Made by a program: the position numbers and the translations under genes | The notes under the pieces: model-generated | Told to the model about the DNA's origin: nothing | What the model saw: the letters and a program-made list of their open reading frames with translations, nothing else | The model's database searches: none | Shown here: positions 13,094-26,100 of the stretch, piece after piece | How the letters are laid out: every line of letters begins with the position of its first letter | Position numbering within the stretch: position 1 is the first letter of the stretch | DNA from: a virus | Length of the DNA: 37,964 nt | IMG/VR virus record: IMGVR_UViG_3300045918_000841 | Coordinates: 1 to 37,964 of that record | Direction: 5' to 3' (one strand)

Positions 13094-13685
13094 TGTCCGG
13101 AATATAGATCCTCACCACGTTCTCTGTTGCAATCGGCCCACCATCCTTACCCGTCAACTCCATTTTATCCTTATGCAGCCCCAGTATCTTCGCCAGTTCA
13201 ACCGCCGATTGATGGCGCTGCGGTACCTTGAACATCACATGCGTAGTGCCAAACTTACTATCACGCTCAACATCAAACTCCAGGATAGACGCCGCCTCAC
13301 TACTGATCGCCTCAATCGACTGAGGCTTGCCAAGTTCATCAAGATACTCACGCCGATCGATCTTCAACACCTTACCGTGATACTCCATCAGATCAGCAGC
13401 AGTAACCTCATAACGCCGGCGCAACTCATCACGTATCTGCCCGATTCTTTTGACAATCTTATCTTTTCTTAGCATTTTGCATGCTTGAACCGCAGCCGTC
13501 TCGTCACTTACTTCCGGATGAATCGCCTTATACGCCTTGGTGCCGTTGTTACGCAGCACATACTCCCAGCAAACACGCTCCTGATCAGGGCGCAGCACAA
13601 TAGACTCGTACCCGAGCGCATCCGCCATCCCCGGCAGCGCAACTTGACCCGGCACAGAACCGGTATGTGAAGAAAGTCCATCCAT
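13071..13685 (-). CDS. terS: Terminase small subunit
   Basis: This 204-residue protein has the Terminase_2-type layout. A helix-turn-helix region comprises RPDQERVCWEYVLRNNGTKA, YKAIHP and ETAAVQACKMLRKDKIVKRI. It is followed by a helical oligomerisation part (LRRRYEVTAADLMEYHGKVL). The C-terminus contains VELAKILGLHKDKMELTG, common in this family. It recognises phage DNA and loads the large subunit encoded immediately downstream. It is the first gene of the late operon; upstream are an operator copy and the terminator of the early operon. Confidence 0.85.
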   Translation of the reverse strand: MDGLSSHTGSVPGQVALPGMADALGYESIVLRPDQERVCWEYVLRNNGTKAYKAIHPEVSDETAAVQACKMLRKDKIVKRIGQIRDELRRRYEVTAADLMEYHGKVLKIDRREYLDELGKPQSIEAISSEAASILEFDVERDSKFGTTHVMFKVPQRHQSAVELAKILGLHKDKMELTGKDGGPIATENVVRIYIPDNGRDNRD

Positions 13686-13727
13686 AATCGACAGCTACCG
13701 CAACATAAAACATTTCTCAACAAAAAA

Positions 13728-13748
13728 ATTCACTATCATATTGAACAG
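13728..13748 (-). promoter_or_regulatory. Operator copy upstream of terminase (late) operon
   Basis: On the minus strand this reads CTGTTCA, then the spacer ATATGATAG, then TGAA followed by T's, so the right arm is partial. The first 18 bases (13731-13748) are identical to the minus strand at 8948-8965. It begins directly after the T-tract of the terminator at 13749-13772. TATGAT inside it could serve as a -10 box, but no good -35 lies at the right distance, so I do not call a promoter. Confidence 0.5.
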
Positions 13749-13772
13749 AAAAAAGGCCAGGTTTCCCCGGCC
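13749..13772 (-). terminator. Rho-independent terminator of the early/replication operon
   Basis: On the minus strand a 7-bp GC-rich stem (GGCCGGG with CCTGGCC, one G-T pair) and a GAAA loop are followed by six T's. It lies 7 bp after the stop of the gene ending at 13780. It separates the leftward early and replication genes from the terminase operon. Confidence 0.85.
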
Positions 13773-13779
13773 CTTCGGT

Positions 13780-14013
13780 TTATATGCTCACTACCGCCAA
13801 CGAACAATTCACATGCCGCTTCTTCCTGCCGCGCATCTCCCCCTGGTGCAAACCCTTGTGGCGCTTATCGCAATATCGCCGCTTCAAAAAATTATTCTTC
13901 GTCTCCCCCTCCTTCTTAACCAGACCAGCATCACACCACAAACAACTCCGCTCATCATCAGCTACCCCTCCCACAGAGCACCCCCAGAAGATTAATTTTG
14001 TCCATCCCTCCAC
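13780..14013 (-). CDS. Small zinc-knuckle-like phage protein, 77 aa
   Basis: The frame opens with GTG at 14013 and ends 7 bp before a strong terminator. It contains SCLWCDAGL and, 20 residues later, FLKRRYCDKRHKGLHQGE. The spacing CxxC...CxxxH...H suggests a zinc-binding fold like the short HNH or zinc-ribbon proteins near phage replication genes. The N-terminal 20 residues may be untranslated, because the GTG at residue 18 is another candidate start. No family was recognised with certainty. The terminator position and the cysteine pattern are the support. Confidence 0.5.
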   Translation of the reverse strand: MEGWTKLIFWGCSVGGVADDERSCLWCDAGLVKKEGETKNNFLKRRYCDKRHKGLHQGEMRGRKKRHVNCSLAVVSI

Positions 14014-14415
14014 TCAGCCATCAAAGCCTCCCTCTCTGCCGCCGTCACGCCGTCGCTCATGCGCAAAAACCTCCCGAATCGTCTGTGCCTCATCATCGCT
14101 AAACAGCGCCATCACCTTCCGGAACGCCTCATCTGCCAACGTCTCGTTATAACTGGTCGTATCGGACAACGCCTTCCGGGTCAGATCCCCGCGCAGTTGC
14201 GGCCGTGGTGCCTGCCGTGCCAGATCAATCAACTCAGCCGGAACCGGCATAAACCGGCACGTCTCCGCCGCCCGCAGACACGCCCACTCCAGTTCCTCAA
14301 TCAGCCACTTATCCAACGCCCGCAGATACAGCAGTTGCCGCTTCATTGGCCATTCGCAACCCACCGTTTCTGCCAAAGCCAGCAGCGCAGCCAGCAGTCT
14401 CTTTTCCCGATCCAT
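14014..14415 (-). CDS. Probable phage replication helicase-loader-like protein, 133 aa
   Basis: The start is the ATG at 14415 (MDREKRLLAALLALAETVGC), with GGAGG nine bases upstream. The gene overlaps the replication initiator gene by 107 bp. The helical protein contains LDKWLIEELEWACLRAAETC, FMPVPAELIDLARQ and ALFSDDEAQTIREVFAHE. This layout, with a Trp-containing first half and an F-P-P-ELI-like motif, resembles lambda P-type proteins that load the host DnaB helicase. Position directly after the initiator supports this. The similarity is in general pattern, so the assignment is tentative. Confidence 0.5.
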   Translation of the reverse strand: MDREKRLLAALLALAETVGCEWPMKRQLLYLRALDKWLIEELEWACLRAAETCRFMPVPAELIDLARQAPRPQLRGDLTRKALSDTTSYNETLADEAFRKVMALFSDDEAQTIREVFAHERRRDGGREGGFDG

Positions 14416-15277
14416 ATTTCCGTTCCTCCAGTAACCGCAACGCCTCTTGCGTCGCCGCAATATTCGCTTCACTGCGCTGTTCCGCCTTGGTTTTTTTCTC
14501 AACAACGCCTTTCGGTTTGCCTTTCAGGACTTCAAGCAGATACGCAAACGATTTACCGCCATGCAGTGCCATCTGCTCAAACACCGCTTCCAGTTTGTCT
14601 CTCGGATGCCGCAGGCACAACTCCTGAGCCTGATTGTTCAGCCCACCAGGCAGCAACTCCCCTGTCGCCTGGTGATATGCCAAGCGAAACTCAAAAATTG
14701 CCAAACGCTCCGTCATCGTCACCGCCGTTCCGTCTGGCGGTTGATCCAACTCCGTTGTTAACTCCACTACTGGTGACGATGATGTTTCTTCTTTTAGAGA
14801 AGGAGAAGGAGAAGGAGAAGGAGAAGGAGAAGGGGCATTGCTCACAGCAATGCTTGGAGCATCCTCGTAGCATTGCTCTTGCATCTGTTTTGGATAGCTA
14901 CCTGTATTAATTGAACTATTATTTTTATTCCATCGAGCATTGCTTGCCTTTTTTGCTTTCTCTGAACGAGTTGGTGAGCCAATAACCCATGTTTGATGAT
15001 CATCCCAATCATGAGGATAATAGCCGTTCTCTATCTCATCAATAAAACCGACTGATAATAACGACTGAAACAACAACCCCGGTTCACCAGTCCAACAGGC
15101 AATATCCTCAATTTCATCACCAGACCAACCAATTAATTCACCAGTTGGTAGGTACTGGGCAATATACCCCCACATACACACCAAATACTCCATTGGCGAC
15201 TCACCAATTGCTCTTTTCAATCGTTTATACTTAAGGTGACGAGGCAGACCTATACTGATACGGATGTCACTGTTCAT
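14309..15277 (-). CDS. Phage replication initiator / replisome-organizer-type protein
   Basis: This 322-residue protein starts MNSDIRISIGLPRHLKYKRL. Its N-terminal domain (MEYLVCMWGYIAQYLPTGEL, then a segment through IACWTG) resembles the winged-helix domain of phage replisome organizers. It is followed by a Ser-Pro repeat linker (about residues 149-162) and a C-terminal helical domain with PRDKLEAVFEQMALHGGKSF, then AYLLEVLKG, like DnaD/DnaB-type primosome regions. It probably binds the phage origin and recruits a helicase loader, plausibly the overlapping gene downstream. The linker is encoded by a perfect hexanucleotide repeat. Confidence 0.65.
   Translation of the reverse strand: MNSDIRISIGLPRHLKYKRLKRAIGESPMEYLVCMWGYIAQYLPTGELIGWSGDEIEDIACWTGEPGLLFQSLLSVGFIDEIENGYYPHDWDDHQTWVIGSPTRSEKAKKASNARWNKNNSSINTGSYPKQMQEQCYEDAPSIAVSNAPSPSPSPSPSPSLKEETSSSPVVELTTELDQPPDGTAVTMTERLAIFEFRLAYHQATGELLPGGLNNQAQELCLRHPRDKLEAVFEQMALHGGKSFAYLLEVLKGKPKGVVEKKTKAEQRSEANIAATQEALRLLEERKYGSGKETAGCAAGFGRNGGLRMANEAATAVSAGVG
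14799..14834. repeat. Hexanucleotide tandem repeat (GGAGAA)n in replication gene
   Basis: About six uninterrupted copies of a 6-base unit occur on the plus strand. On the minus strand they encode alternating Ser-Pro residues in the linker of the replication initiator. Each copy change would add or remove one Ser-Pro pair without a frameshift. Confidence 0.85.
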
Positions 15278-15316: not shown

Positions 15317-15490
15317 CTACCCAAAACAATACTTACAGCGAACAAACACCCGCAGCGTAGCCGGATCAACCAACACCAACTCAACCGGTTTCTTACCAGC
15401 CATATCCAACGCCAACGGACAAACCGGCCCAGCGTGAAGCACCTTGGCCTGACGGCCTTTACTGGCAGAAACATAATAGCGCCCTGTCAT
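15317..15490 (-). CDS. Hypothetical small protein coupled to the integron-type integrase, 57 aa
   Basis: The ATG at 15490 overlaps the stop of the integrase gene (ATGA at 15487-15490). The 57-residue product begins MTGRYYVSASKGRQAKVLHA and ends VFVRCKYCFG. It is basic, with cysteines in GPVCPLAL and RCKYC that could form one zinc site. I do not recognise a family. Exact coupling suggests co-expression with the recombinase, either as a partner or as an older phage gene behind which the recombinase gene was placed. Confidence 0.5.
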   Translation of the reverse strand: MTGRYYVSASKGRQAKVLHAGPVCPLALDMAGKKPVELVLVDPATLRVFVRCKYCFG

Positions 15491-16497
15491 GCTACCCTCC
15501 GCAGTTCCGTCACCGGCCGACGATCCAGCGGACTATCAACCCGTGACGGCGTAATGAGATGAACATAAATCATCGTCGTTTCAATTTTACTATGCCCGAG
15601 AATCCGCTGCAGCCGTGGCAGCACAACATCCTGAGCCCCGTCAGCATCCTCCAGCCAATGAGTAGCAAAAGAATGGCGCAGAATATGTGGGTACACCCGC
15701 TTTGTAATACGAGCACGAGCCCCCGCCGCCTTGATCTGCTTCTGCACCGCAGTTTCATGCACAAACCAGCGCCGCTGCACGCCGCTATCCTTTTCCGTAT
15801 AGCGACCAGCAGCCGGGAACACCCACTGCCAACACCAATCCCAGGGAGCATTCGGGGCCTTCTTCGCAAACGCCCCAGGCAGAGCCACACCACCCCAACC
15901 ATCTGCAAGATCCTGCTCATGAATCCGCGCCACCCGTTGCAGATGCTGCTGCAACGGAGCAATCACCAAAGAGGGGAGGGGAACATACCGATCTTTATCC
16001 CCCTTGCCGGCACGGACAATGATAGTCTTACGATCAAAATCAACATCACCAACCCGCAACATGCAGCACTCCATCAGCCGCAGGCCGCAACCATACATCA
16101 AAGCGGCCATCAGCCAGAAGTCACCTTTAAGGTTATCAAGCACCCGCCATACCTCATCACGACTAAGGACAACAGGCAACCGGACCGGACGCTTTGAGCG
16201 AAGAAACGAAATATCACCAAGTTCGATTTTAAGCACCTTGCCATACAGATAGACCAGAGCGCACAAGGCTTGCTTCTGCGTACTGGCCGCGACACCGTTC
16301 TTCCCACCCACCAGATGCGTGAGAAATTGCCCTATTTCAACAACCCCCATATCAGCAGGATGCCTCAGTTTGTGGTGATGGATGAATTGCTTAATCCAAT
16401 TAACGTAGGTATCAATAGTATTCGGGCTCAGTCTCTGGAGCCGCATGTTGTTGCGCACCTGGTCCAGCAGTCGGGGTTTATTCGGTTCAGTCTGCAT
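15487..16497 (-). CDS. intI-like: Integron-integrase-family tyrosine recombinase (IntI-like)
   Basis: This 336-residue protein aligns by eye with IntI1 over its full length. The N-terminal core-binding domain has RLSPNTIDTYVNWIKQFIHH and ASTQKQALCALVYLYGKVL. Catalytic residues are R140 (YGCGLRLMECCMLR), a Lys in GKGDKDR (164-170), H271 and R274 (HILRHSFATH), H302 (LGHS) and Y311 (TTMIYVHL). Between R and H it has the IntI-specific insertion (GVALPGAFAKKAPNAPW, then WCWQWVFPA and SGVQRRWFVHE, about 203-248), which XerC/D-type enzymes lack. The C-terminus has SPLDRRPVTELRRV as in IntI proteins. A five-residue insertion lies between HSFATHWL and LGHS. The start has AAGGAG eight bases upstream. 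Adjacent attC cassettes support a role in cassette recombination. Confidence 0.9.
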   Translation of the reverse strand: MQTEPNKPRLLDQVRNNMRLQRLSPNTIDTYVNWIKQFIHHHKLRHPADMGVVEIGQFLTHLVGGKNGVAASTQKQALCALVYLYGKVLKIELGDISFLRSKRPVRLPVVLSRDEVWRVLDNLKGDFWLMAALMYGCGLRLMECCMLRVGDVDFDRKTIIVRAGKGDKDRYVPLPSLVIAPLQQHLQRVARIHEQDLADGWGGVALPGAFAKKAPNAPWDWCWQWVFPAAGRYTEKDSGVQRRWFVHETAVQKQIKAAGARARITKRVYPHILRHSFATHWLEDADGAQDVVLPRLQRILGHSKIETTMIYVHLITPSRVDSPLDRRPVTELRRVA

Positions 16498-16524: not shown

Positions 16525-16587
16525 TGAAAACGAATACTGCCGTTTCCGGTTATACCGACCGCATGGCGGTCGAATCAGATGTTATAT
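16525..16587 (-). repeat. Terminal attC-like site next to intI (attC0, one side degenerate)
   Basis: On the minus strand the site starts with ATATAAC (16581-16587), the reverse complement of GTTATAT that begins the same cassette at 17148-17154. A 7-bp perfect hairpin (CGACCGC/GCGGTCG, 16556-16572) follows. The far box is poor: GTTTTCA at 16525-16531 is the only GTT at the expected distance. The site lies 28 bp upstream of the integrase start. It may be the last attC with an eroded end, or a fused attI remnant. Confidence 0.6.
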
Positions 16588-17133
16588 TCTTCTCGATGAT
16601 TCCGCTACTTCGACCAGCCATTGCCGCAGCGCATCCGGCGTATGTTCCCGCTCAAACTGTGTGCAACGCTTTGTACCTGGCACTTGCCCTGTAATCGACT
16701 TTGCAGCTCGACCGTACTTTTTCGGAATGACCGGCAACTTTTGCGGAGGGCAACCGCAGATGTAAATCTTTGTCGGCTTGTTCGCAACGTGTCCAAAAGC
16801 ATACTGGTCAATCTCTACCGTGTAGCCGCCGAACTCGTCAGGGAACATACCCTCTTCTGGCAGGTTCGCTTCTTTCCAAAGCCGTGAACCAGAAGGATGC
16901 TCCAAGCAGCCACCGTTTGCCCGTACCTGCTCGACAGCCCACAAAGCAAGCTCGCGTTCGCCCTCTCTCGGTTTTGCCATGTGCGCCAGTATTCCCCACG
17001 CTCGACACGGTGGATGTGCAATTACCGGCATCCCGCCAGAGAATGAAAGAGCGTCACGGTCAAAATCGTAGCAGTCGCATTGCGGCATCTTTTTGTATTC
17101 TGAATCTGCTCTGACAAACAACACCGCTACCAC
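16582..17133 (-). CDS. Cassette 9: phage-type protein with PPC motif, 183 aa
   Basis: A GTG at 17133 with GGGGGAG upstream is the likely start, because earlier codons lie inside attC1. The protein contains GGMPVIAHPPCRAWGILAHM, then ALWAVEQVRANGGCLEHPSGS and YAFGHVANKPTKIYICGC. I recognise this pattern from hypothetical phage proteins. The PPC and LEHPSGS segments recall cytosine-C5 methyltransferase motif IV, but no SAM-binding glycine loop is present. The function is therefore open. The stop codon TAA lies inside the attC0 core ATATAAC. This is the cassette nearest the integrase. Confidence 0.65.
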   Translation of the reverse strand: MVAVLFVRADSEYKKMPQCDCYDFDRDALSFSGGMPVIAHPPCRAWGILAHMAKPREGERELALWAVEQVRANGGCLEHPSGSRLWKEANLPEEGMFPDEFGGYTVEIDQYAFGHVANKPTKIYICGCPPQKLPVIPKKYGRAAKSITGQVPGTKRCTQFEREHTPDALRQWLVEVAESSRRI

Positions 17134-17147
17134 ATTGCTCCCCCAGA

Positions 17148-17202
17148 ATATAACCAACGCATCGACCGGATGAAGAACCCGGTCATGCTTTAACCGTTAG
17201 AT
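17148..17202 (-). repeat. attC1 site, 55 bp
   Basis: On the minus strand: R'' box ATCTAAC, an interrupted palindrome (GCATGACCGG with CCGGTCGATGC), then R' box GTTATAT. R'' matches the RYYYAAC consensus exactly. It lies 1-2 bp after the stop of the 275-residue gene and just before the next cassette gene. Confidence 0.85.
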
Positions 17203-18029
17203 TACTCTGCCACTATTCCCTTTTGTGTCCACGGATGGCCTGTCGGACTACACCAGCAATGTTTTGACAACAGGTGTATATTTCGGCCTTGCAGGTCTGT
17301 CAGAACATCATTGAGAGTGCCTTGCAATTCCTGTGCATCACGCCGCCAGTTTATGGCATCCTCACATGCTGCATCGAGAGACACACGCCAGAACTCAGCC
17401 TTTGACAGTGCCGCCTTTTCGTCACATCGAATTTTATTGCTCAATAGCCGTTCGGTTATGAGTTCAGCTTTTAAAACCAACACCTCATCGTCGTGACGTT
17501 CAACTGCTGCATCCACTCCACTGATATTCATAGACCGCCTGAAAGCAATATCATCGCAAACAGCGCAATCACATGGTTGATCATGCTGGCTCAAAAACAT
17601 ATCATCTAGCGACATCCTTGATACCTTTTCGTGTTCTTCACAAAGCGTAATTTGTGTTGCAGGGACACAGGCACAAACATCACATGACCCATCCAGAACA
17701 GGCACCAGAGATTGAAGTGTTGCAATCTCAGACTGTGCCAGAGCATAACTTTCACCTCTGTCTATTGTCTGTATTTCCAAGTCCTTTATTTTTGCTGTTA
17801 CCATCTGCGACAATTCATGCAGGCTGTGTTCATAATGCTCGATTTTAAGAGCGTCACAGAGAATCCCTTTGATACCGGCTTCGTTGACTGCCAGCGTGTG
17901 ATGAAGGTTGAAGAATTTAAGGTATGCTTCTTTCAAAGCTGTTATTACCGCCGCCGCTTCTTGTAGCTCCTCGGTATCATCGCCGCTGTCTGCTATCCAT
18001 TTATTCGCATGTTCCAGCATTTCACTCAT
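17202..18029 (-). CDS. Cassette 8: helical cysteine-rich hypothetical protein, 275 aa
   Basis: The start ATG at 18029 has AAGGGGG five bases upstream and lies 17 bp after the recombination core of attC2. The 275-residue protein is mostly helical (ELQEAAAVITALKEAYLKFF; LKAELITERLLSNK). Its middle holds two cysteine clusters (GSCDVCACVP and QPCDCAVCDD) that could bind metal. Long coiled-coil phage proteins of this type occur in accessory regions, but I recognise no family. The stop codon directly abuts the R'' box of attC1. Cassette core boxes GTTAGAT (start) and ATCTAAC (end) are exact complements. Confidence 0.6.
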   Translation of the reverse strand: MSEMLEHANKWIADSGDDTEELQEAAAVITALKEAYLKFFNLHHTLAVNEAGIKGILCDALKIEHYEHSLHELSQMVTAKIKDLEIQTIDRGESYALAQSEIATLQSLVPVLDGSCDVCACVPATQITLCEEHEKVSRMSLDDMFLSQHDQPCDCAVCDDIAFRRSMNISGVDAAVERHDDEVLVLKAELITERLLSNKIRCDEKAALSKAEFWRVSLDAACEDAINWRRDAQELQGTLNDVLTDLQGRNIHLLSKHCWCSPTGHPWTQKGIVAE

Positions 18030-18045
18030 AAAACCCCCTTTCGTA

Positions 18046-18104
18046 ATCTAACCAACGCTGTCCACCAGCCCGAGAAACCGGCTGGTGACGCTCAAGCGTT
18101 ATCT
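18046..18104 (-). repeat. attC2 site, 59 bp
   Basis: Minus strand: R'' AGATAAC (18098-18104), a 9-10-bp central stem (TCACCAGCCGG pairing with CGGGCTGGTGG), and R' GTTAGAT (18046-18052), a perfect GTTRRRY. The stop TAA of the upstream gene is inside R''. Confidence 0.9.
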
Positions 18105-18563
18105 GTATAAAATCGCCTCTACCTGCTGCCGAGTTTCGGGGTGGAGTTGAATGGTGGTTTTGTTCTTGTCGTACCATTCCTTTGTTTCCCATTTGCCAGT
18201 GATAGCGCGACCTGCACCCATCCAATCGGCCACCATCTCCAGTACGTACCGGCGCGGCATTGGTAGTGGTTCGGTTGTGCCCCTATCCCACGTAATCAGC
18301 CAATACTGCCAATGGTGTTTATTTCGCTTTTGGTGGTGGTTCCAAGCGTAAGTGAAGTCCATCCCTTCTTTGTACTGCTTTGAGCCGTCAGGCGCATAGA
18401 AACAGCAGGCGTATGGCATCCACTCAGAAGGTTTGAACTTGCTGGCATCGTGAATAATCACCCGCCAGAAGAGTGCAAGCGGAGCGTTCTTGATCCGCAG
18501 TCCAGCAACATAGACAAACCACTTATGGCGTAACAGGTATTTCAAATAATTCAGATGTCGCAT
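18099..18563 (-). CDS. Cassette 7: DUF5662-type phage protein, copy 1, 154 aa
   Basis: The 154-residue protein starts MRHLNYLKYLLRHKWFVYVA with GGAGG before the ATG. It contains VIIHDASKFKPSEWMPYACC, FTYAWNHHQKRNKHHWQYWL and MPRRYVLEMVADWMGAGRAI. The HDxSKF...HH...H pattern is typical of the DUF5662 family common in phages, whose histidines and acids suggest a metal-dependent activity that is not established. The sequence is identical to the copy at 18646-19110. Its stop TAA lies within the R'' box of attC2. Confidence 0.75.
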   Translation of the reverse strand: MRHLNYLKYLLRHKWFVYVAGLRIKNAPLALFWRVIIHDASKFKPSEWMPYACCFYAPDGSKQYKEGMDFTYAWNHHQKRNKHHWQYWLITWDRGTTEPLPMPRRYVLEMVADWMGAGRAITGKWETKEWYDKNKTTIQLHPETRQQVEAILYR

Positions 18564-18589
18564 GATTCCTCCGTAAAGTTGAAATTCTC

Positions 18590-18651
18590 AGATAACCACG
18601 CCTGGAAGCGGACTCCACTACGTTCCGCCGTTCAGGCAGAGGCCGTTATCT
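18590..18651 (-). repeat. attC3 site, 62 bp
   Basis: Minus strand: R'' AGATAAC (18645-18651) and R' GTTATCT (18590-18596), which are exact complements. Between them lies an imperfect stem with GCCTGAAC/GCGGA on one side and TCCGC/CCAGGC on the other. It separates the two identical cassettes. Confidence 0.85.
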
Positions 18652-19110
18652 GTATAAAATCGCCTCTACCTGCTGCCGAGTTTCGGGGTGGAGTTGAATG
18701 GTGGTTTTGTTCTTGTCGTACCATTCCTTTGTTTCCCATTTGCCAGTGATAGCGCGACCTGCACCCATCCAATCGGCCACCATCTCCAGTACGTACCGGC
18801 GCGGCATTGGTAGTGGTTCGGTTGTGCCCCTATCCCACGTAATCAGCCAATACTGCCAATGGTGTTTATTTCGCTTTTGGTGGTGGTTCCAAGCGTAAGT
18901 GAAGTCCATCCCTTCTTTGTACTGCTTTGAGCCGTCAGGCGCATAGAAACAGCAGGCGTATGGCATCCACTCAGAAGGTTTGAACTTGCTGGCATCGTGA
19001 ATAATCACCCGCCAGAAGAGTGCAAGCGGAGCGTTCTTGATCCGCAGTCCAGCAACATAGACAAACCACTTATGGCGTAACAGGTATTTCAAATAATTCA
19101 GATGTCGCAT
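18646..19110 (-). CDS. Cassette 6: DUF5662-type phage protein, copy 2, 154 aa
   Basis: Every base of this gene matches the copy 547 bp away at 18099-18563, so the two products are identical 154-residue proteins. The lack of any difference means a recent duplication or ongoing copying between them. The stop TAA is inside the R'' box of attC3, and the ATG has GGAGG upstream as in copy 1. If the early operon is transcribed through both, the dose of this protein would be doubled. Confidence 0.75.
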   Translation of the reverse strand: MRHLNYLKYLLRHKWFVYVAGLRIKNAPLALFWRVIIHDASKFKPSEWMPYACCFYAPDGSKQYKEGMDFTYAWNHHQKRNKHHWQYWLITWDRGTTEPLPMPRRYVLEMVADWMGAGRAITGKWETKEWYDKNKTTIQLHPETRQQVEAILYR

Positions 19111-19136
19111 GATTCCTCCGTAAAGTTGAAATTCTC

Positions 19137-19198
19137 AGATAACCACGCCTGGAAGCGGACTCCACTACGTTCCGCCGTTCAGGCAGAGGCCGTTATGC
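19137..19198 (-). repeat. attC4 site, 62 bp
   Basis: Minus strand: R'' GCATAAC (19192-19198) belongs to the upstream zinc-ribbon cassette. The rest, including R' GTTATCT (19137-19143), is identical to attC3. The TAA stop of the upstream gene is inside R''. Confidence 0.85.
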
Positions 19199-19408
19199 CA
19201 ACAACCTCATGTTCCAACATCTCCGAGCTTCGGCTTCGTTTATCGGAGCTTCTGTATCTGTGCCAGGGGTGATATTCCACATAGCCCCAGCCGCACCGCA
19301 AAACATGCACTGCATGTATGCCAGATTTGCCACTTCAACCCTGATATACTGGAGTTGATCACTTTTACCGCAGAATGGGCAGGGCTTCAAATCGACCGGC
19401 GACGTCAT
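19193..19408 (-). CDS. Cassette 5, second gene: Lar-like zinc-ribbon protein, 71 aa
   Basis: Starting at the ATG at 19408, which overlaps the preceding stop as ATGA, this 71-residue protein begins MTSPVDLKPCPFCGKSDQLQ. A second knuckle is QCMFCGAAG, followed by EAEARRCWNMR. The LKPCPFCG...C..CG...A...WN pattern is that of the Lar family (restriction-alleviation-like) found in many phages. Family members in Rac modulate type I restriction; activity here is inferred from similarity. The TAA stop is inside the attC4 core. It shares its cassette with the 99-residue gene. Confidence 0.75.
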   Translation of the reverse strand: MTSPVDLKPCPFCGKSDQLQYIRVEVANLAYMQCMFCGAAGAMWNITPGTDTEAPINEAEARRCWNMRLLA

Positions 19409-19704
19409 GCGCTCACCCATACTACCGACTTGCCGCCGTTCACCCATCCCTCCTGATAATCGGTTTCGCCAGCCACCGCCAATGTTGCCACCCGCTCAAC
19501 GTCCGACCAGTTCATGTTATTCGCGGCCCAATCCTCAACTTCGTAGTGATCCGCGGCAAAAAGTGGCATCGTGTCTTCATCCAGCGATTTCTGCACATCG
19601 CCACCAAATTCAGAGGCGTAGTATTCTGCTCTGTTCTGAGCAATCACCGATACCGGAACATCCCATTTGCTGCCGTCAGGCATGTTTACTCGTAAAACTT
19701 TCAT
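19405..19704 (-). CDS. Cassette 5, first gene: hypothetical protein, 99 aa
   Basis: The chosen start, ATG at 19704 (MKVLRVNMPDGSKWDVPVSV), has AGGG eight bases upstream. Upstream codons fall in attC5. It contains IAQNRAEYYASEFGGDVQKS and HYEVEDWAANNMNWSDVERV, a pattern I have seen in small phage accessory proteins of unknown function. It is acidic and soluble, with no metal-binding motif. Its stop overlaps the start of the Lar-like gene, making this a two-gene cassette with coupled translation. Confidence 0.6.
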   Translation of the reverse strand: MKVLRVNMPDGSKWDVPVSVIAQNRAEYYASEFGGDVQKSLDEDTMPLFAADHYEVEDWAANNMNWSDVERVATLAVAGETDYQEGWVNGGKSVVWVSA

Positions 19705-19733
19705 GATTTTCCCTTTCATGGCACCATAGACGG

Positions 19734-19792
19734 GCATAACCCGCCTATCGACCGGAACATAAAGCCGTCCGGTCATCGGCTAACCGTTATCC
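19734..19792 (-). repeat. attC5 site, 59 bp
   Basis: Minus strand: R'' GGATAAC (19786-19792), a long stem (CCGATGACCGGA pairing with TCCGGTCGATAGG), and R' GTTATGC (19734-19740). R'' contains the TAA stop of the upstream gene. It has one mismatch to the start box of its own cassette. Confidence 0.85.
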
Positions 19793-20221
19793 TTCGTCGC
19801 ATCCTTCGCCAGCCCACCAACCCGCGTCAGTATCCCATCGAACATGGTCGCAGGCGGCCTCACATACATCATTAGTCGGAATGTGGTCGTCACAAATTTT
19901 GCAGTAAATCGTGTCCGATTCGCAGCCCCATGATTCCAAACCCCAAAGCCATTTTGGGTTGATGGTCTGTAGTCGGCTTCCCATGCCCTCGCCGGGGTTG
20001 ACATTTGGAGAGAATCGTTTTGCCAGCCAGAAATCATTTACCCGCCCGCCCTCTAAATATACGGAGTTGCCATCAATGCCGTAGTTTCCGCAGCTGTTAA
20101 AATATAGTGTGCCGTCAGCTTTGCAAAATTCTACGTCGAAGATACTACTGTCATCGGTAACGACCGAAAAGGGCCGGTTATTCTCAAATACTATTGCTAT
20201 GATTTTACGGTCCTTTTCCAT
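19787..20221 (-). CDS. Cassette 4: cysteine-containing hypothetical protein, 144 aa
   Basis: The ATG at 20221 follows GGAGGAACTT, so it is preferred over the ATG at 20233, which lacks a ribosome site. The 144-residue protein begins MEKDRKIIAIVFENNRPFSV. Its C-terminal half has cysteines in CGNYGIDG, GCESDTIYCKICDDHIP and VCEAACDHVRW that could coordinate zinc. The family is not recognised. Its cassette is the only one whose end core (GGATAAC) differs from the complement of its start core (GTTATCT), by one base. Confidence 0.55.
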   Translation of the reverse strand: MEKDRKIIAIVFENNRPFSVVTDDSSIFDVEFCKADGTLYFNSCGNYGIDGNSVYLEGGRVNDFWLAKRFSPNVNPGEGMGSRLQTINPKWLWGLESWGCESDTIYCKICDDHIPTNDVCEAACDHVRWDTDAGWWAGEGCDEG

Positions 20222-20233
20222 AAGTTCCTCCAT

Positions 20234-20298
20234 AGATAACCAGCTTTTTCGACACAGGCGGCGATAAAGCCGCCGCTGGTCAAAGCTGATCGTTATAC
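20234..20298 (-). repeat. attC6 site, 65 bp
   Basis: Minus strand: R'' GTATAAC (20292-20298), a stem of GACCAGCGGCGGC against GCCGCCTGTGTC, an L' region ending AAAAGCTG, and R' GTTATCT (20234-20240). The upstream gene stops 8 bp before R''. Confidence 0.85.
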
Positions 20299-20306
20299 AT
20301 CTCTGG

Positions 20307-20666
20307 TCACGGTCTCACAGAGTTCACGTATTCCATGATCTCGTCAGCACACTGATAAATAGTTGTGTCGTCATGCGGATTACAGGTTGCGAGAATATAC
20401 GGGCAGACCGTGTCACAGAGTTGAGCCAGCCGCCCAAGTGATTCAGCATACTGTTTTTCCAGTGCCCTCCATTCTTCCCGCTCTGTGCGTTGCGCTACGT
20501 CCATCCGTTCAATGCCGTTTTGCAGGTCAACCACCATAAAGCGGAGGGTATCGGCTTCGAGTTTTTCCAGCACTTCCCAATCCGCAGAAGGTGGTATCGT
20601 GTCAAAGGTTTTCCCGCATTTGGTGCATTCCTTCACCCTTACCAGTTCATGATTGCAATTTTCCAC
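20307..20666 (-). CDS. Cassette 3: hypothetical zinc-knuckle protein, 119 aa
   Basis: The start chosen is GTG at 20666, with AAGGAG six bases upstream. The open frame continues 168 bp further upstream, but that part runs through attC7. The product begins MENCNHELVRVKECTKCGKT, which holds one C...CxxC knuckle, then a helical stretch (VLEKLEADTLRFMVVDLQNG) and TVCPYILATCNPHDD. No family is recognised. Its cassette is intact by the complementary cores GTTATAC and GTATAAC. Confidence 0.55.
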   Translation of the reverse strand: MENCNHELVRVKECTKCGKTFDTIPPSADWEVLEKLEADTLRFMVVDLQNGIERMDVAQRTEREEWRALEKQYAESLGRLAQLCDTVCPYILATCNPHDDTTIYQCADEIMEYVNSVRP

Positions 20667-20697
20667 GATGTTCTCCTTGTTGTTGCATTCGTTCGAT

Positions 20698-20763
20698 GTA
20701 TAACCAGCCCCACGACCTTGACCGCCAGAAAGACGGCGGCAGGTCAGGGGCCAGCCGTTAAAC
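20698..20763 (-). repeat. attC7 site, 66 bp
   Basis: Minus strand: R'' GTTTAAC (20757-20763), matching RYYYAAC exactly, a stem with GACCTGCCGCCGTC against GGCGGTCAAGGTC, and R' GTTATAC (20698-20704). The YopX gene's TAA stop lies within R''. Confidence 0.9.
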
Positions 20764-21117
20764 CGACTCTGCCGACGGTGGCAGTAATTCGGGATTTTCA
20801 AAAACATTACCGAGAACCTCGCGACAGGATACATCTGAGTGGAACAAATTTTGATTGCGGATCAGGTGCAGCCCCTCAGCCCAGAAACTCCCGCCAGAGA
20901 ATACGACTCGTGCTGTGAAATACTGACCGCTGTCAAAAATACGGACAACATCACCGTCGTAAATTTCTAAACCGTTTTTGTCGAACAGGCCGCTGGACAG
21001 CATCAATTCTTTGTCTCCAAAATGATGCATAAATGACGGCATAGTTTCCAGATCGTTGTCGCCCTGAAACGCCATGTACTGCTGTTTTTCGTCCCATGCT
21101 CTAAATTGATATTCCAT
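20758..21117 (-). CDS. Cassette 2: YopX-family protein, 119 aa
   Basis: From the ATG at 21117 (AAAGGA upstream) the protein begins MEYQFRAWDEKQQYMAF. It continues with the YopX signature SGLFDKNGLEIYDGDVVRI and ends with DVSCREVLGNVFENPELL. YopX proteins are small beta-rich proteins found widely in phages of many hosts, function unknown. The length fits the family. The stop TAA is embedded in the attC7 core, and the cassette cores GTTAAAC/GTTTAAC are exact complements. A classic phage accessory gene packaged as an integron cassette is unusual. Confidence 0.85.
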   Translation of the reverse strand: MEYQFRAWDEKQQYMAFQGDNDLETMPSFMHHFGDKELMLSSGLFDKNGLEIYDGDVVRIFDSGQYFTARVVFSGGSFWAEGLHLIRNQNLFHSDVSCREVLGNVFENPELLPPSAESV

Positions 21118-21134
21118 GTGGTTTCCTTTCGCTG

Positions 21135-21185
21135 GTTTAACAATCGCTACCAGCGTATTCACGCTGAAGCGATGCCCCGTTAAAT
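21135..21185 (-). repeat. attC8 site, 51 bp
   Basis: Minus strand: R'' ATTTAAC (21179-21185), a short stem (GCATCGCTTCAGCG pairing with CGCTGGTAGCGAT), and R' GTTAAAC (21135-21141). It is the shortest attC in the array. The TAA stop of the upstream gene is inside R''. Confidence 0.85.
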
Positions 21186-21473
21186 GGACTCTGGTTCTTT
21201 CGGTAATGGTTTCTCGTCACCACACATTTTGCAACGCAACCGCGCAAATTCAGGCGGGTAGGTTTTTGTTTTCTCGTACTCGTGGCTGCCTGTGTTCAGG
21301 CAGTCGGCGGCATGGGCGGAATAACTGAAATGGATTGCAGTGGTGAAAATAAACGCCTTTTCGCATTCTCTGCATTCGGTTTCATGATACATATCTTCCT
21401 CATACCCAAATCCGTCATCATGGCAAACCTCGTTGTCAGCCCCGCAGTATGGGCATTGCAGATCATTTTTCAT
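21180..21473 (-). CDS. Cassette 1, third gene: zinc-ribbon protein, 97 aa
   Basis: The ATG at 21473 has AGGGG upstream and overlaps the preceding gene by 11 bp. The protein begins MKNDLQCPYCGADNEVCHDD and has TECRECEKAF and LRCKMCGDEKPLPKEPE, giving three CxxC knuckles. Two-ribbon proteins of this type are frequent in phage genomes. It probably binds nucleic acid or protein through zinc; no specific partner is visible. The stop lies inside attC8. It is the last gene of a three-gene cassette. Confidence 0.6.
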   Translation of the reverse strand: MKNDLQCPYCGADNEVCHDDGFGYEEDMYHETECRECEKAFIFTTAIHFSYSAHAADCLNTGSHEYEKTKTYPPEFARLRCKMCGDEKPLPKEPESI

Positions 21474-21831
21474 TAACCCCTCCATGCTCGATAATTTGCA
21501 GTACAGCCCCGCAAACTGCCTGTGTAATTGTTGGAGCCTCGAACGTGAACCACTCCGCACCGTCGCGGAATACTGTCAGGCCCCAGCCATCAGGGGAGAT
21601 TTTAGACTCCAATCCCACACCAAACCCCCGCTCAGGGAATACAGCCAGCAACTCAACCGATCTACGCTCCGACGTTTCCCACGGAATAGACAGCCCGCCG
21701 AGTCCGTGCATGGCGCAGTTGCCCCAATATCTGGTTGGTATAACTTTCTGACCATCCATATATGGCTCAAACCCGTGTATGCAGGTACACGGCCTGCCCA
21801 TCCACTGAGATATTTTGTCGTTGTTGTTCAA
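21463..21831 (-). CDS. Cassette 1, second gene: hypothetical protein, 122 aa
   Basis: A TTG at 21831 is the best start: it has GGGG seven bases upstream and overlaps the preceding stop as TTGA. An ATG at 21858 is an alternative. The protein begins MNNNDKISQWMGRPCTCIHG, contains YWGNCAMHGLGGLSIPW and ends with TITQAVCGAVLQIIEHGG. It resembles short phage hypothetical proteins of the type WMG/EP...W, which I cannot name. It is soluble and contains three cysteines near the N-terminus. Confidence 0.55.
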   Translation of the reverse strand: MNNNDKISQWMGRPCTCIHGFEPYMDGQKVIPTRYWGNCAMHGLGGLSIPWETSERRSVELLAVFPERGFGVGLESKISPDGWGLTVFRDGAEWFTFEAPTITQAVCGAVLQIIEHGGVNEK

Positions 21832-21998
21832 AATTGTTCCCCTTTCGGCGGGTTGCATGGCGAGCAGGTACACCCCGCCAGAATGTCATTATCTTTTTTG
21901 CGCCACCAAGCCCACCCGGTCATGACGTAGGGGCATGGGCCTTTGCTCCACCCGTTCACCCCATCCCGGCGTTTAGGTTGTCCGTCTCTCCGTTTCAA
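21828..21998 (-). CDS. Cassette 1, first gene: small Trp/Cys-containing protein, 56 aa
   Basis: Reading from a TTG at 21998 with GGGAGG five bases upstream gives 56 residues, including KGPCPYVMTGWAWWRKKDN and GCTCSPCNPP. The stop overlaps the next start by TTGA. The gene begins about 20 bp inside the first cassette, directly after attC9. The basic start and the C-terminal cysteine cluster suggest a small zinc or nucleic-acid-binding protein. The start codon and function are uncertain; the ribosome site and coupling support expression. Confidence 0.45.
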   Translation of the reverse strand: MKRRDGQPKRRDGVNGWSKGPCPYVMTGWAWWRKKDNDILAGCTCSPCNPPKGEQF

Positions 21999-22016
21999 AA
22001 TTGCCTCCCTTCGCTC

Positions 22017-22079
22017 ATTTAACCACTGGCACGACCCGACCGCAAAAGACGCAGACGGTTCAGCCAGAGCCCGTTAGCC
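22017..22079 (-). repeat. attC9 site, 63 bp, upstream boundary of the cassette array
   Basis: Minus strand: GGCTAAC (22073-22079) as R'', an imperfect stem (CTGGC, ACCG and CTGC against GCGG, CGGGT and GCCAG), and R' GTTAAAT (22017-22023). No matching GTTAGCC start box is visible further upstream, so this site may be the founder attC or part of the insertion locus. Confidence 0.75.
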
Positions 22080-22131: not shown

Positions 22132-22299
22132 CTAATGTTTATACCCAAACGTAACCGTCATCGTAATAGCCAATGCCGACAACCAATAACAGACATCAAC
22201 CCATTTCCGTTCACAAGCCCAGCGCAGGATATTCATCAAATACAGCGACATGATCACATACGAGAAAATACGAGGATCTTTCAGCAACGTCAAAATCAC
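22132..22299 (-). CDS. Small membrane protein, 55 aa
   Basis: A GTG at 22299 overlaps the preceding stop (GTGA), and GGGGGT lies upstream. The 55 residues begin MILTLLKDPRIFSYVIMSLY. Two hydrophobic stretches are SYVIMSLYLMNILRW and YWLSALAITMTVTFGY, giving one or two membrane spans. It is not long enough for an enzyme. It follows the MazG-like gene in the early operon and is the last gene before the integron boundary. The function is unknown; small early membrane proteins may act in superinfection exclusion. Confidence 0.5.
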   Translation of the reverse strand: MILTLLKDPRIFSYVIMSLYLMNILRWACERKWVDVCYWLSALAITMTVTFGYKH

Positions 22300-22562
22300 A
22301 ACTCATACCCCCGCTGACGGTTCTTCTCCTGCACCCGCAGCAACACATCCAGCGGATGAATCCCGAATTGCCGCTCAACAATATCAAGCGCCGTTTTTGC
22401 CGAAGTCAACAGATCCGCCAACTCCTCCGCCACTCGCTCAATCGGCTCGTTTTCAAAAGCAAGATCAACTTCCATAAGCTCGCTCCGGATATGAGCAATC
22501 TGGGCAACTAAGCCGTTCTGTTGCGAAAACTTTAGTTTCGGAAAGGGGAGGGTGTCTATCAT
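22296..22562 (-). CDS. MazG-like NTP pyrophosphohydrolase-type protein, 88 aa
   Basis: The 88-residue helical protein contains LVAQIAHIRSELMEVDLAFE and, 15 residues on, VAEELADLLTSAKTALDIVE. The ELMEVD and EELAD pairs match the ExxE...ExxD metal-binding signature of all-alpha nucleotide pyrophosphohydrolases (MazG/dUTPase-like). Such phage enzymes hydrolyse NTPs or the alarmone pool to nucleoside monophosphates. The start ATG at 22562 overlaps the true stop of the DHH gene by 4 bp. Its translation-start segment is identical over 21 bp to that of the gene at 8934. Confidence 0.65.
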   Translation of the reverse strand: MIDTLPFPKLKFSQQNGLVAQIAHIRSELMEVDLAFENEPIERVAEELADLLTSAKTALDIVERQFGIHPLDVLLRVQEKNRQRGYEL

Positions 22563-23423
22563 GCCGGCACCTGTTCACTGAGCGGAGTCGAAGTGAGACT
22601 AAACGGCAAAACATCACACTGGAAACCAGATGCCCCCTTATGCCCCCCCCCCGCCACGAGCCTTACAAATGGCCGATACATCAACCTCCGGCTTTTCGGC
22701 ATACAGCGAAATCTTCCATTTATCCCGGTACCAGCAGAACGAAAGCATAGCGTCGTGCTTCTCCGGGTCGTAACCGGAATCAAACACTGTCGAATTTGTC
22801 AGCCCCTTATTGACCGCCAGCACTCGCAAACCATCTAACTCCGTTTCAAAACCGCACGACCGGAGATAACTCTCATTATCTTTCTTTTGCGCCGCCAACA
22901 GCAACCCACCGGCCCGGGTGATCTCTTCAACCAGATCATCATCAATAAACAAACGGCTCCAGAACTCGCTATTATTCGGATCAGTATCAAACTGCCAGAC
23001 GCCTTTCTGAAACTCCATTGCGCCAGGGTGATTCATCCAGTCCCATACGTCATAGCGTCCGAGCAGAAACACCGCCCGCGGCAGAACAGAGTCAACAAGG
23101 CACTCCCACACCAGTTCGCAACCAGCCTTACCGATAACCTGCATGCCATTGAACGGCACGTCGGCCAGATCTCGCTCTTCGATAGCGCTCTTGTGGTGGT
23201 CGATCCACACCAATGCGCCACACGCCTCTTTTAGCCGGATCATGTCACTGAATGGTTGCAGTGAGAAATCCACCATATACACCAGCTCGTCAGACAGGAT
23301 CGTCTCCCACGGAAACGGCTGGCCGTAGTTGATACCTATCAGCTCGCATTCAGGGTGAACTTCTTTGACTATTGCGCCGGAACACCGCCCATCTTGATCA
23401 GCACTGTGGTAAAAACATTTCAT
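22559..23423 (-). pseudogene. DHH-family phosphoesterase split by a 10-G tract
   Basis: From the ATG at 23423 (GGAGG upstream) the protein begins MKCFYHSADQDGRCSGAIVK and has the DHH motif VWIDHHKSAIEE. As written it stops at 22638 after KARGGGGA (261 aa). If one G is removed from the 10-G tract at 22643-22652, the frame continues as GGGGHKGASGFQCD, the DHHA1 motif, and ends EQVPA with its stop overlapping the next gene (ATGA at 22559-22562); length 287 aa. The intact frame is thus clear. DHH proteins cleave phosphodiester bonds in oligonucleotides or cyclic dinucleotides using Mn ions. Without the C-terminal GGGH motif, substrate binding would be impaired. The cause could be phase variation, mutation or a sequencing error. 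Confidence 0.8.
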
Positions 23424-23618
23424 TGAGTAACCTCCGTAAAATAAGTTCCGGTCTTTCCCGGCTGTCAGGAGCCTTGCTGTTGAACTCCGGTCCTGCAATA
23501 TACGGCGGTCAGGAGTGGCGGCAAGTGTGTGAATCACGGGACTCCGCCACAAGCTACCCCGATAAACTATGCCTTTCCTGCCGTGCTCAAATCACGGTTG
23601 AACCGCCTGGGGGGTTCC
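23424..23618. other. 195-bp untranslated gap in the early operon
   Basis: This gap has no ATG on the minus strand and no convincing reading frame. It holds two inverted repeats: GTGGCGG/CCGCCAC (23515-23550) and CCGTG/CACGG around 23580-23596. There is no T-tract and no good promoter. It is the longest gap in the leftward early genes and may be a structured leader for the DHH gene. Confidence 0.5.
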
Positions 23619-23798
23619 CTAATCCTCCACCCGATCACCACACCAGATAATCACACCCTCGTCACTACCGCCCAGATCCACATCCTCGACCTCAGCCAAC
23701 CACTCACCGCAATCGATAATCACCGGAGTTTCACCAGACACATCCTGGCTATCCTTCATCTCCTCCAGCCGTCTGATAAGTTCGTCAACAGTAATCAC
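23619..23798 (-). CDS. Small acidic phage protein, 59 aa
   Basis: A GTG at 23798 has GGGAGG six bases upstream and overlaps the preceding gene by 14 bp. The product begins MITVDELIRRLEEMKDSQDV and continues GETPVIIDCGEWLAEVEDVD, ending with VIIWCGDRVED. Phages frequently encode short proteins starting TVxELIxxL with a following VVID strand. The function is unknown. The longer upstream frame has low-complexity hydrophobic content and overlaps the HTH gene, so it was not used. Confidence 0.6.
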   Translation of the reverse strand: MITVDELIRRLEEMKDSQDVSGETPVIIDCGEWLAEVEDVDLGGSDEGVIIWCGDRVED

Positions 23799-24069
23799 AC
23801 TCAACCTCCCGAATAATCGCACTAGGAAACCCGCCGCCAAACCCCTCAACCCGTAACCGCTCATCAACCCGAGCGGCAATCCCGGCCATAAACTCCAAAT
23901 CCTGCTGCTGCCACTCCCGAATGCGGTTAATAAATCCTGCCGGCATTGCCCGGCGCCCGGTCTCATACCCCTGATACGTCCCCTTCGGGATATGTAACAG
24001 CGCCGCCATCTCCCCCAGACTGAACTCCATCTCCAACCGCAACGCCTTTAACTCCGCATACGCTTCCAC
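23785..24069 (-). CDS. Cro/CI-type helix-turn-helix regulator, 94 aa
   Basis: From a GTG at 24069, with GGAGG eight bases upstream, the protein starts MEAYAELKALRLEMEFSLGE. The HTH is LGEMAALLHIPKGTYQGYET, followed by GRRAMPAGFINRIREWQQQD. This is the xenobiotic-response-element (XRE) fold used by phage Cro-like regulators. It is within the early operon, so it may tune early transcription rather than maintain lysogeny. The DNA target is unknown; operator copies at 26078, 13728 and 8943 are candidates. Confidence 0.7.
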   Translation of the reverse strand: MEAYAELKALRLEMEFSLGEMAALLHIPKGTYQGYETGRRAMPAGFINRIREWQQQDLEFMAGIAARVDERLRVEGFGGGFPSAIIREVECDYC

Positions 24070-24096
24070 GCGAAAAAACCTCCAAACCGTATGCGC

Positions 24097-24279
24097 CTAA
24101 GCGCACAATCTCGTCTCCCAATCCGGCTCAAACTCCAGACACTCATGCACCGTACCCGCAACAAACGCCTCAAGCTCCAACCGGGCACACTCCCCAATAC
24201 CACTGCACCGCTGCACCACACAACGCTCGCACTGGCTATACGCCTTATAATTACGCCGTTTGCGCTTCACTGCAGCCAT
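24097..24279 (-). CDS. Small cysteine-rich phage protein, 60 aa
   Basis: The ATG at 24279 has AAGAGGCG upstream and overlaps the end of the preceding gene by 29 bp. It begins MAAVKRKRRNYKAYSQCERC and continues VVQRCSGIGECARLELEAF, with further cysteines in HECLEF and RLCA. The spacing CxxC...C...C suggests a metal site, and the N-terminus is very basic, which may favour DNA or RNA binding. The family is not recognised. Confidence 0.55.
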   Translation of the reverse strand: MAAVKRKRRNYKAYSQCERCVVQRCSGIGECARLELEAFVAGTVHECLEFEPDWETRLCA

Positions 24280-24658
24280 CGCTTCGCCTCTTACCCTGCT
24301 CCAACAAAAAATACTTCTGCAACGTCCGGTCGCAACACTTATGCCCCGCCTGCGTCAACTGCCGCGCAATCGCCTCAAACGTCACCGAAACCGCCCGACA
24401 CAACGCAATACAGCCATAAAATCGCAGCACAATAGCAATAGTAGCCGCTCCGGACACCATCCCGCTATCCAGCGCCTCCGGAGTCAACGCCACAACCGGC
24501 GCTCCAAACGACTCCCACCACTTCCCACACAAGCGGCAACTAAACCCACTAATCATCACGCCCCCAGAACAATCCAGACGAGACAACTGCGATGATTGCG
24601 ATAAACCCTCCACCCGGATCACCGCCGGACCAGACGCCCCACACTTTGGGCACTCCAT
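24251..24658 (-). CDS. Zinc-ribbon and helix-turn-helix-like phage protein, 135 aa
   Basis: The ATG at 24658 overlaps the preceding stop (TGATG). The protein begins MECPKCGASGPAVIRVEGLS; a second knuckle, FSCRLCGKWWES, completes a zinc ribbon of the Ogr/Delta or Com style. The C-terminal half has AVSVTFEAIARQLTQAGHKC, then CDRTLQKYFLLEQGK, which reads like a helix-turn-helix. It is probably a DNA-binding regulator of phage genes. No exact family match is claimed. Confidence 0.55.
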   Translation of the reverse strand: MECPKCGASGPAVIRVEGLSQSSQLSRLDCSGGVMISGFSCRLCGKWWESFGAPVVALTPEALDSGMVSGAATIAIVLRFYGCIALCRAVSVTFEAIARQLTQAGHKCCDRTLQKYFLLEQGKRRSDGCSEAQTA

Positions 24659-24834
24659 CAACGTTTCACCAAAAACGCCCGATCAGGACCAAGCGAGCGA
24701 TTAACCGCCTCCATCATCTCCGTAACCGTCGGTTGCGGCACAACATCATGATTCTCATACCAACCAGCAACACCCATAGCCGCCACCAACAACAGAAACA
24801 CCACAACGCCATGTAACTTCTCACGCTTACTCAT
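24658..24834 (-). CDS. Small single-span membrane protein, 58 aa
   Basis: Reading from the ATG at 24834, with GGGAGGCGGAC upstream, gives 58 residues. It begins MSKREKLHGVVVFLLLVAAM and continues to a Gly/Ala segment, forming one membrane span after a short basic start. The rest (PQPTVTEMMEAVNRSLGPDR) is likely outside the cytoplasm. Both ends are coupled to neighbours: ATGA at the start and TGATG at the end. The function is unknown. Similar small early proteins occur in phages that alter the host envelope. Confidence 0.55.
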   Translation of the reverse strand: MSKREKLHGVVVFLLLVAAMGVAGWYENHDVVPQPTVTEMMEAVNRSLGPDRAFLVKR

Positions 24835-24971
24835 GTCCGCCTCCCGTCGACAACAACTGACTCTAAAATCTGCTTTAACCCGTCAACCTCCGCAGCATCC
24901 ATCCCCGAATCAGACTCCGCCAAATGGTGCAACGCCAACACAACAAACAACAATCGCGAATCATCGTTCAT
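24831..24971 (-). CDS. Small hypothetical phage protein, 46 aa
   Basis: The ATG at 24971 overlaps the upstream stop as ATGA and has GGAG six bases upstream. The product is 46 residues (MNDDSRLLFVVLALHHLAES at the start, VVVDGRRT at the end), and its stop overlaps the next start by 4 bp. It is acidic and helical. No family is recognised. Translation is supported by two exact 4-bp overlaps. Confidence 0.5.
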   Translation of the reverse strand: MNDDSRLLFVVLALHHLAESDSGMDAAEVDGLKQILESVVVDGRRT

Positions 24972-25150
24972 CGCGCACTCCGGGCAGCCTTACGCTTCAA
25001 AATGCGCCGCTCCGCCTCATCCGCCGCCGCACACGACAGCGAATAAGGGAGTGCCCCGCGCACCGGCTCAACAACAGTCGCCGGACGCATAAACTCCGCC
25101 ATCACCTCACGAACCAGCGTCTTAATTTCATGCTTATCCTGTTCAGTCAT
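24968..25150 (-). CDS. Small helical phage protein, 60 aa
   Basis: The start is the ATG at 25150, coupled to the upstream stop as ATGA, with GAGGG upstream. It begins MTEQDKHEIKTLVREVMAEF, helical and charged, with a basic C-terminus (AERRILKRKAARSAR) that could contact nucleic acids. The family is unknown. It belongs to a string of short overlapping genes, a layout like the accessory early region of lambdoid phages. Confidence 0.5.
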   Translation of the reverse strand: MTEQDKHEIKTLVREVMAEFMRPATVVEPVRGALPYSLSCAAADEAERRILKRKAARSAR

Positions 25151-25401
25151 CCCCGTACCCTCACAAAACGTCGCTGCAACCCCTGATACACCCGCGCCAG
25201 CCGCATATGCTTGCAATCCTCCGCCGGATACAACAACATCCCGCTCCGCACCTCAAAATCACGGCAACCACACCCCGCAGCGCACTCATCCAGATCAACC
25301 AGATACAGCACCCCGCGCCGACCGCTTGAGGTAACGTGATACCGGCCACGCTCGCCCGTCACCGGATACACCCCGAAATCAACCGCCGCCCGCGCACTCA
25401 T
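25147..25401 (-). CDS. SWIM-zinc-finger-like protein, 84 aa
   Basis: This 84-residue protein starts at the ATG at 25401 (ATGA with the preceding gene). It contains RYHVTSSGRRGVLYLVDLDE, then CAAGCGCRDFEVR and, 12 residues later, DCKHMRL. The CxC...CxH spacing is that of a SWIM-type zinc finger, used for nucleic acid or protein contacts. Short SWIM proteins occur in phages, with no known specific role. The length is that of an isolated domain. Confidence 0.65.
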   Translation of the reverse strand: MSARAAVDFGVYPVTGERGRYHVTSSGRRGVLYLVDLDECAAGCGCRDFEVRSGMLLYPAEDCKHMRLARVYQGLQRRFVRVRG

Positions 25402-26016: not shown

Positions 26017-26056
26017 ATCGCTCTCTCCCGCACTGGTAGTTTTCAGCATTTTGCGA

Positions 26057-26100
26057 ACAATAAAAAAAGCTGGTAGTCTGTTCAATAAGATGATGAACAG
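26057..26100 (-). promoter_or_regulatory. Leftward early promoter with overlapping 23-bp palindromic operator
   Basis: Minus strand: -35 TTGAAC (26080-26085), a 17-bp spacer, and -10 TATTGT (26057-26062). The perfect palindrome at 26078-26100 (arms CTGTTCA/TGAACAG, nine-base spacer) covers the -35 box, so a bound protein would block the polymerase. It lies directly after the stop codon of the ribbon-helix-helix gene. The same palindrome recurs at 8943 and, in part, at 13728. Confidence 0.7.

Follow-up and report, generated by a model that had tools for sequence, protein, structure and literature searches.

The virus record IMGVR_UViG_3300045918_000841 of IMG/VR, 37,964 bases long and analysed over its whole length (hereafter the window), carries a complete integron within what its sequence identifies as a genuine temperate tailed prophage. 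The element consists of an integron integrase gene (intI, positions 15487-16497, minus strand), an adjoining attI-like site (16525-16587, plus strand) and nine gene cassettes that run from 16582 to 22073. Taken together, the data make it very probable that this integron is the phage's own, a system of IntI, attI and attC sites that moves phage accessory genes, and that its reversed cassettes are probably transcribed by the phage. A preliminary description of this DNA had already placed an integron inside a prophage, and the array is indeed flanked by structural genes on one side and by early, regulatory and integration genes beside a tRNA-Leu gene on the other. The attI half-site, the identity of cassettes 3 and 4 and the antisense direction of the cassette genes are additions to that description.

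The intI product (336 aa, intact) scored 352 bits against the NCBIfam integron-integrase model TIGR02249, for which the cut-off is 265, and its scores with the XerC and XerD models lay far below the cut-offs of those models. The catalytic residues R140, K165, H271, R274, H302 and Y311 are all present, in invariant columns of an alignment that included IntI1 and the Vibrio, Shewanella and Gemmatirosa integrases, and the IntI-specific region is retained. A five-residue insertion ahead of LQRILGH is found, among the nine integrases aligned, otherwise only in those of the viral loci L004, a lambda-type phage whose integrase is 91% identical, and L005. In the phylogenetic tree the integron integrases split from the outgroup with 100/99 support. 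The window integrase falls within an all-viral clade of 28 entries (support 92/93), inside which subclades of 18 (97/89) and 11 entries (100/99) are nested around it; a quick tree gave a viral clade of 30 entries (support 97). As judged from these models, alignments and trees the recombinase is an IntI and not a XerC/D enzyme, as first proposed. No bacterial integrase exceeded about 51% identity to the window protein among those sampled, which were the best 80 of more than 587 matches. At least 80 IMG/VR records hold an IntI relative. Viral and bacterial integrases alternate in the rest of the tree, and phages have therefore probably gained such integrases several separate times. In L005 and in the related phages L023 (Virus Rctr41k) and L158 an IntI is present, and no convincing attC array was found; the integrase of Rctr41k is labelled xerD in GenBank.

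The attC sites were sought with a covariance model, R2, trained on 41 bacterial attC sites and no phage sites, which replaced a model of 12 class-1 attC sites (R1) that proved too narrow. All nine sites of the preliminary description, 51-66 bp long, were matched by R2, every one on the plus strand, with scores from 20.1 down to 7.9 bits. Four have an expectation value (E) below 0.05, namely attC1 (17148-17202; 18.8 bits, E 0.02), attC3 (18590-18651; 18.3 bits, E 0.026), attC4 (19137-19198; 18.0 bits, E 0.031), which equals attC3 outside the outer core, and attC5 (19734-19792; 20.1 bits, E 0.0097). The others are attC2 (18046-18104; 14.0 bits), attC7 (20698-20763; 11.0 bits), attC8 (21135-21185; 14.2 bits), attC9 (22017-22079; 10.6 bits), which ends the array and is near-identical to positions 2127-2189 of L004, and the weakest, attC6 (20234-20298; 7.9 bits, E 8.4), which forms a strong hairpin and shows exact core pairing with attC7. 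Six unrelated R2 matches are scattered among the weaker attC scores. R1 weakly detected only three of the window sites, attC7 (11.0 bits) and attC8 (13.8 bits) among them, and gave 28.7 bits for positions 2706-2763 of L004. An Rfam scan of the window at gathering thresholds returned tRNA only and no attC family. In many other virus records R2 also matched attC sites, with up to 45 bits, and nearly all of these point away from intI. Terminator hairpins were considered as an explanation of the sites and rejected.

The pairing of cassette ends provides a second line of evidence. In eight of the nine cassettes the terminal 7-mers are exactly complementary, as had been described, and cassette 6 is the exception with a single mismatch (GTTATCC versus AGATAAC); in L004, which carries different cassettes, the end cores pair in six of six. 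The array thus contains five exact core links in a row, or nine if one mismatch is allowed, and the maxima in 200 dinucleotide-preserving shuffles of the array region were one and four. Each cassette could accordingly be circularised, its start core pairing with the R'' of its own attC, and where a complete integron calls for at least two attC sites with R''/R' cores and an imperfect palindrome, nine are present. The preliminary description would have been abandoned had fewer than three attC sites been found by a covariance model and the recombinase grouped with XerC/D; nine were found, and it groups with IntI.

A tenth site, or half-site, lies at the 5' end of intI (16525-16587), with its crossover point between G16581 and T16582. 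Its motif, TTCCGGTTATAC...AATnAGnnG|TT, is retained in L004 and L005. Moreover, the window and L004 are similar in DNA from inside the core of this site (16585) across intI to 15521, where the similarity ends. Both its retention and the break of similarity at its core identify the site, at the level of sequence comparison, as the attI of the integron. An attI adjoining intI, as a complete integron should have, is hence common to three phages.

The attC sites of the window, like those of L004, point away from intI in the canonical manner. Every cassette gene of the window, in turn, lies on the minus strand, antisense to attC and reading towards attI. A canonical array has genes sense to attC and a Pc promoter at attI; here all cassette genes are antisense. 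Their direction is underpinned by minus-strand matches to phrog_12600, DUF5662 (twice), a Lar family, phrog_17928, YopX and phrog_35669, and so the antisense assignment stands on predicted protein families and not on open reading frame length alone. In seven of the nine cassettes, furthermore, the TTA of the opening core is the TAA stop codon of the antisense gene. The minus strand is common to the structural genes, the replication initiator, intI, the cassettes and the early genes leftward from 26,085.

For comparison across loci, gene direction was scored by codons; the orientation of the longest open reading frame was noisy in G+C-rich contigs and was dropped. Cassettes in arrays 5' of intI divided into 31 antisense and 2 sense in viral loci, a set that may include some bacterial DNA wrongly classed as viral, versus 0 antisense and 13 sense in bacterial loci. 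Counted per locus, the antisense to sense ratio was 14:1 versus 0:11 (p = 1.6e-6), and over all bacterial arrays 27 cassettes were sense and 1 antisense. In a Shewanella prophage with a captured host integron, the cassettes that could be called were 5 sense and 0 antisense. A core serving as stop codon of an antisense gene was found in none of 34 cases in bacterial arrays to the left of intI, where a sense gene ends in the R'' core in 14 of 34; viral arrays in the same position gave 23 antisense and 10 sense, and the test is blurred for arrays to the right of intI. In a viral subgroup (L121, L132 and L171) the attC sites lie 3' of intI, and where the genes could be called (L121 and L171) they are sense to attC and on the intI strand. 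Phage cassette genes thus seem, from their arrangement, to follow phage transcription whichever way attC faces. The occurrence of antisense arrays in several separate viral branches of the tree suggests convergence under selection for the direction of transcription.

The cassettes themselves, all read on the minus strand, carry small genes, and the YopX, DUF5662 and Lar-like cargo originally reported was recovered by family matches. Cassette 1 (16582-17196) holds a phrog_12600 gene (16582-17157) and cassette 2 (17197-18098) a gene of no named family (17202-18029). Cassette 3 (18099-18645) carries a DUF5662 gene (18099-18563; PF18907), and cassette 4 (18646-19192) is an exact copy of it, with 0 mismatches over 547 bp. 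Cassette 5 (19193-19786) combines a Lar-type restriction alleviation gene (19193-19447) with a phrog_17928 gene (19405-19707). These are followed by cassette 6 (19787-20292), whose gene (19787-20233) has no named family, cassette 7 (20293-20757), with a gene that has an end at 20307, cassette 8 (20758-21179), with a YopX gene (20758-21162; PF09643), and cassette 9 (21180-22073), with two genes at 21180-21560 (phrog_35669) and 21463-21873. A defence-system search with the cassette genes gave no match.

Comparison with relatives is consistent with the earlier suggestion that accessory genes are acquired and reshuffled by this system. L004 shares attI and intI with the window and has different cassettes; a YopX cassette occurs in both, at different array positions. 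Over its final 173 bp, as far as the core, the gene in cassette 7 is 92% identical to one that phage L122 carries in a cassette, and the cassette 1 gene has relatives in L126, as a cassette, and in L124, inside the array region. The viral contigs L130 and L131, whose phage nature is less certain, are otherwise 99% alike; the differences between them are entire cassettes, with boundaries at attC cores. L118 and L124, both from one metagenome, have backbones that are 76-95% identical (positions 1-12000 of each) and do not have intI and the array in common, as if an entire integron had been swapped. Packaging genes also vary within the integrase clade: the window has a phrog_979 terminase, L004 a lambda-type terminase, portal and protease, and L110 and L122 a phrog_2 terminase, which indicates that the integron is carried by unrelated phages. 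Hallmark phage genes were found by PHROGs searches of chosen open reading frames in L004, L005, L110, L122, L174, L184 and, weakly, L146, and were also present in L111, L115, L120, L121, L129, L132, L133, L171 and L173. Searches with the window terminase and with single terminase and portal Pfam models found hallmarks in only part of 50 records, because the phages differ.

These data lead to a model in which IntI would recombine folded attC strands with attI at 16525-16587, as in other integrons, and would place incoming cassettes adjacent to intI. Small phage accessory genes could in this way be inserted, excised, duplicated and reordered, and the integron as a whole may be a module traded among phages. 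From the direction of the cassette genes we infer that they, and intI with them, are probably read by early, leftward phage transcription rather than from a Pc promoter of the integron. Such read-through would tie cassette movement to the lytic programme, with recombination upon phage induction, and not to a LexA box; none of the form CTGT-N8-ACAG occurs in the window. Several observations sit less easily with the model. The R2 scores of attC6, attC9 and attC7 are low, the direction of attC is read from a model of bacterial sites and a phage IntI could favour the other strand, and the leftward block has no clear promoter, promoter-like sites being no commoner in it than in shuffled sequence.

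The weak scores of some attC sites might signify a relic, that is, an integron intact only by recent descent, in which recombination has been lost and the attC hairpins now act as transcription or RNA elements. This is unlikely, given that the integrase is intact with all its catalytic residues, that eight of nine core pairs are exact, that the duplicated cassette has no mismatch along its 547 bp and that close relatives vary by whole cassettes. It is also conceivable that attC direction has been misread, so that the other strand is the active one, the genes are sense and attI lies at the opposite end of the array, near 22.1 kb. The attC cores are near-symmetric, and on the gene strand a site does follow each gene; however, no whole window attC was matched on that strand, where 15 bases of attC5 alone gave a hit, and the two strands score far apart in other phages (43.1 versus 14.7 bits for R2 at site 9421 of L174). 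Since, in addition, the att-like site conserved between phages adjoins intI, and it is there that the window and L004 cease to be similar, such a misreading is very unlikely.

The third alternative is that the prophage took up part of a chromosomal integron of its host. Qi et al. (2023; PMC9892861) describe such cases in Vibrio anguillarum and Shewanella phages, and capture of this kind is the origin of the complete integrons so far reported in ordinary temperate phages. A captured fragment should bring a bacterial-type integrase with its attC sites, whereas the window intI belongs to an all-viral clade and is only about 51% identical to the best of the sampled bacterial matches. The array lies between phage replication and early genes and not at a prophage edge, its genes are antisense where those called in the captured Shewanella array are sense, and the attI and intI of the window recur in L004, a lambda-type phage, with other cassettes and other packaging genes. 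Host capture is consequently very unlikely, and a phage-owned integron is the reading retained.

Research on integrons has treated them as devices with which bacteria store and shuffle genes. Like class 1 and sedentary chromosomal integrons (the IntI1, Vibrio and Xanthomonas types), the window element has an IntI recombinase, an attI beside intI, outward-pointing attC sites, complementary end cores and small genes of mostly obscure function. It differs from them in being phage-borne, in the direction of its cassette genes, which is antisense to attC and the same as that of intI, in the placement of its integrase in a separate all-viral clade and in the absence of the above LexA box from the window. 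Treponema-type integrons, seen here in Acidobacteriota and Planctomycetota loci (L038 and L052), likewise place intI on the same strand as the cassette genes; their array is 3' of intI with genes sense to attC, so that the window, with antisense genes, is the mirror case, and the phage loci L121 and L171 are built as the Treponema type.

Integron parts in phages were likewise reported by Qi et al. (2023), whose main text describes three complete integrons, a single isolated integrase and 17 CALINs (orphan attC clusters) from 10,705 phage genomes, as well as recombination of phage attC sites with attI1 by IntI1. The complete integrons described there are a Vibrio host-integron piece, a Shewanella-type integron in an inactive prophage and class 1 fragments in P1, so that all of them consist of material captured from a host or from class 1 integrons. 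In the literature searched, to which most subscription journals and preprints did not belong, earlier phage reports are limited to captured fragments and to orphan clusters of attC, and neither a phage-specific integrase lineage nor antisense cassettes were found in it or in the main text of that paper. The balance of evidence tips slightly towards a broader proposal, that phages keep an integron system of their own, with a distinct integrase lineage and a separate pool of reversed-gene cassettes that can be expressed leftward at any array position and is kept apart from the bacterial pool. The two pools would be functionally separate because a cassette of one is antisense in the other. If it exists, a phage-adapted integron lineage would offer a dedicated route to mosaicism in phage accessory genes (anti-restriction, methylase and other early genes) and would explain the exchange of small genes between unrelated phages at single-base precision. 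It would also raise the question of what makes the cassettes and why gene direction is flipped between the bacterial and phage pools.

To the left of intI, the minus strand carries structural and replication genes (1428-15277) that were recognised with PHROGs and encode an internal virion protein, head proteins, the large (11594-13093) and small (13071-13685) terminase subunits and a replication initiator. To the right of the array are early genes (22296-26085), for MazG-like, DHH phosphoesterase and CII-like regulator proteins, on the same strand as the cassettes and intI. On the plus strand, a phage integrase gene (28659-29669) and a tRNA-Leu gene (29695-29781) mark the prophage end. Misassembly was considered as the source of an integron in a phage and rejected. 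Four further features of the record were observed. A 515-aa protein encoded among the structural genes (4418-5965) has an N-terminal methyltransferase domain and a C-terminal part that is glycosyltransferase-like by eye. A stand-alone response regulator receiver protein (26871-27374), whose gene has that of the putative repressor on one side and the phage integrase gene on the other, is possibly a lysogenic conversion gene product. At its right end the record encodes a Sel1-repeat protein (36062-37690), probably in host or satellite DNA. Finally, right behind the tRNA-Leu gene, a second mobile element (29931-35900), with a P4-type integrase, an AlpA-like excisionase and a protein combining Toprim and ResIII helicase domains, looks like a phage satellite adjoining the prophage.

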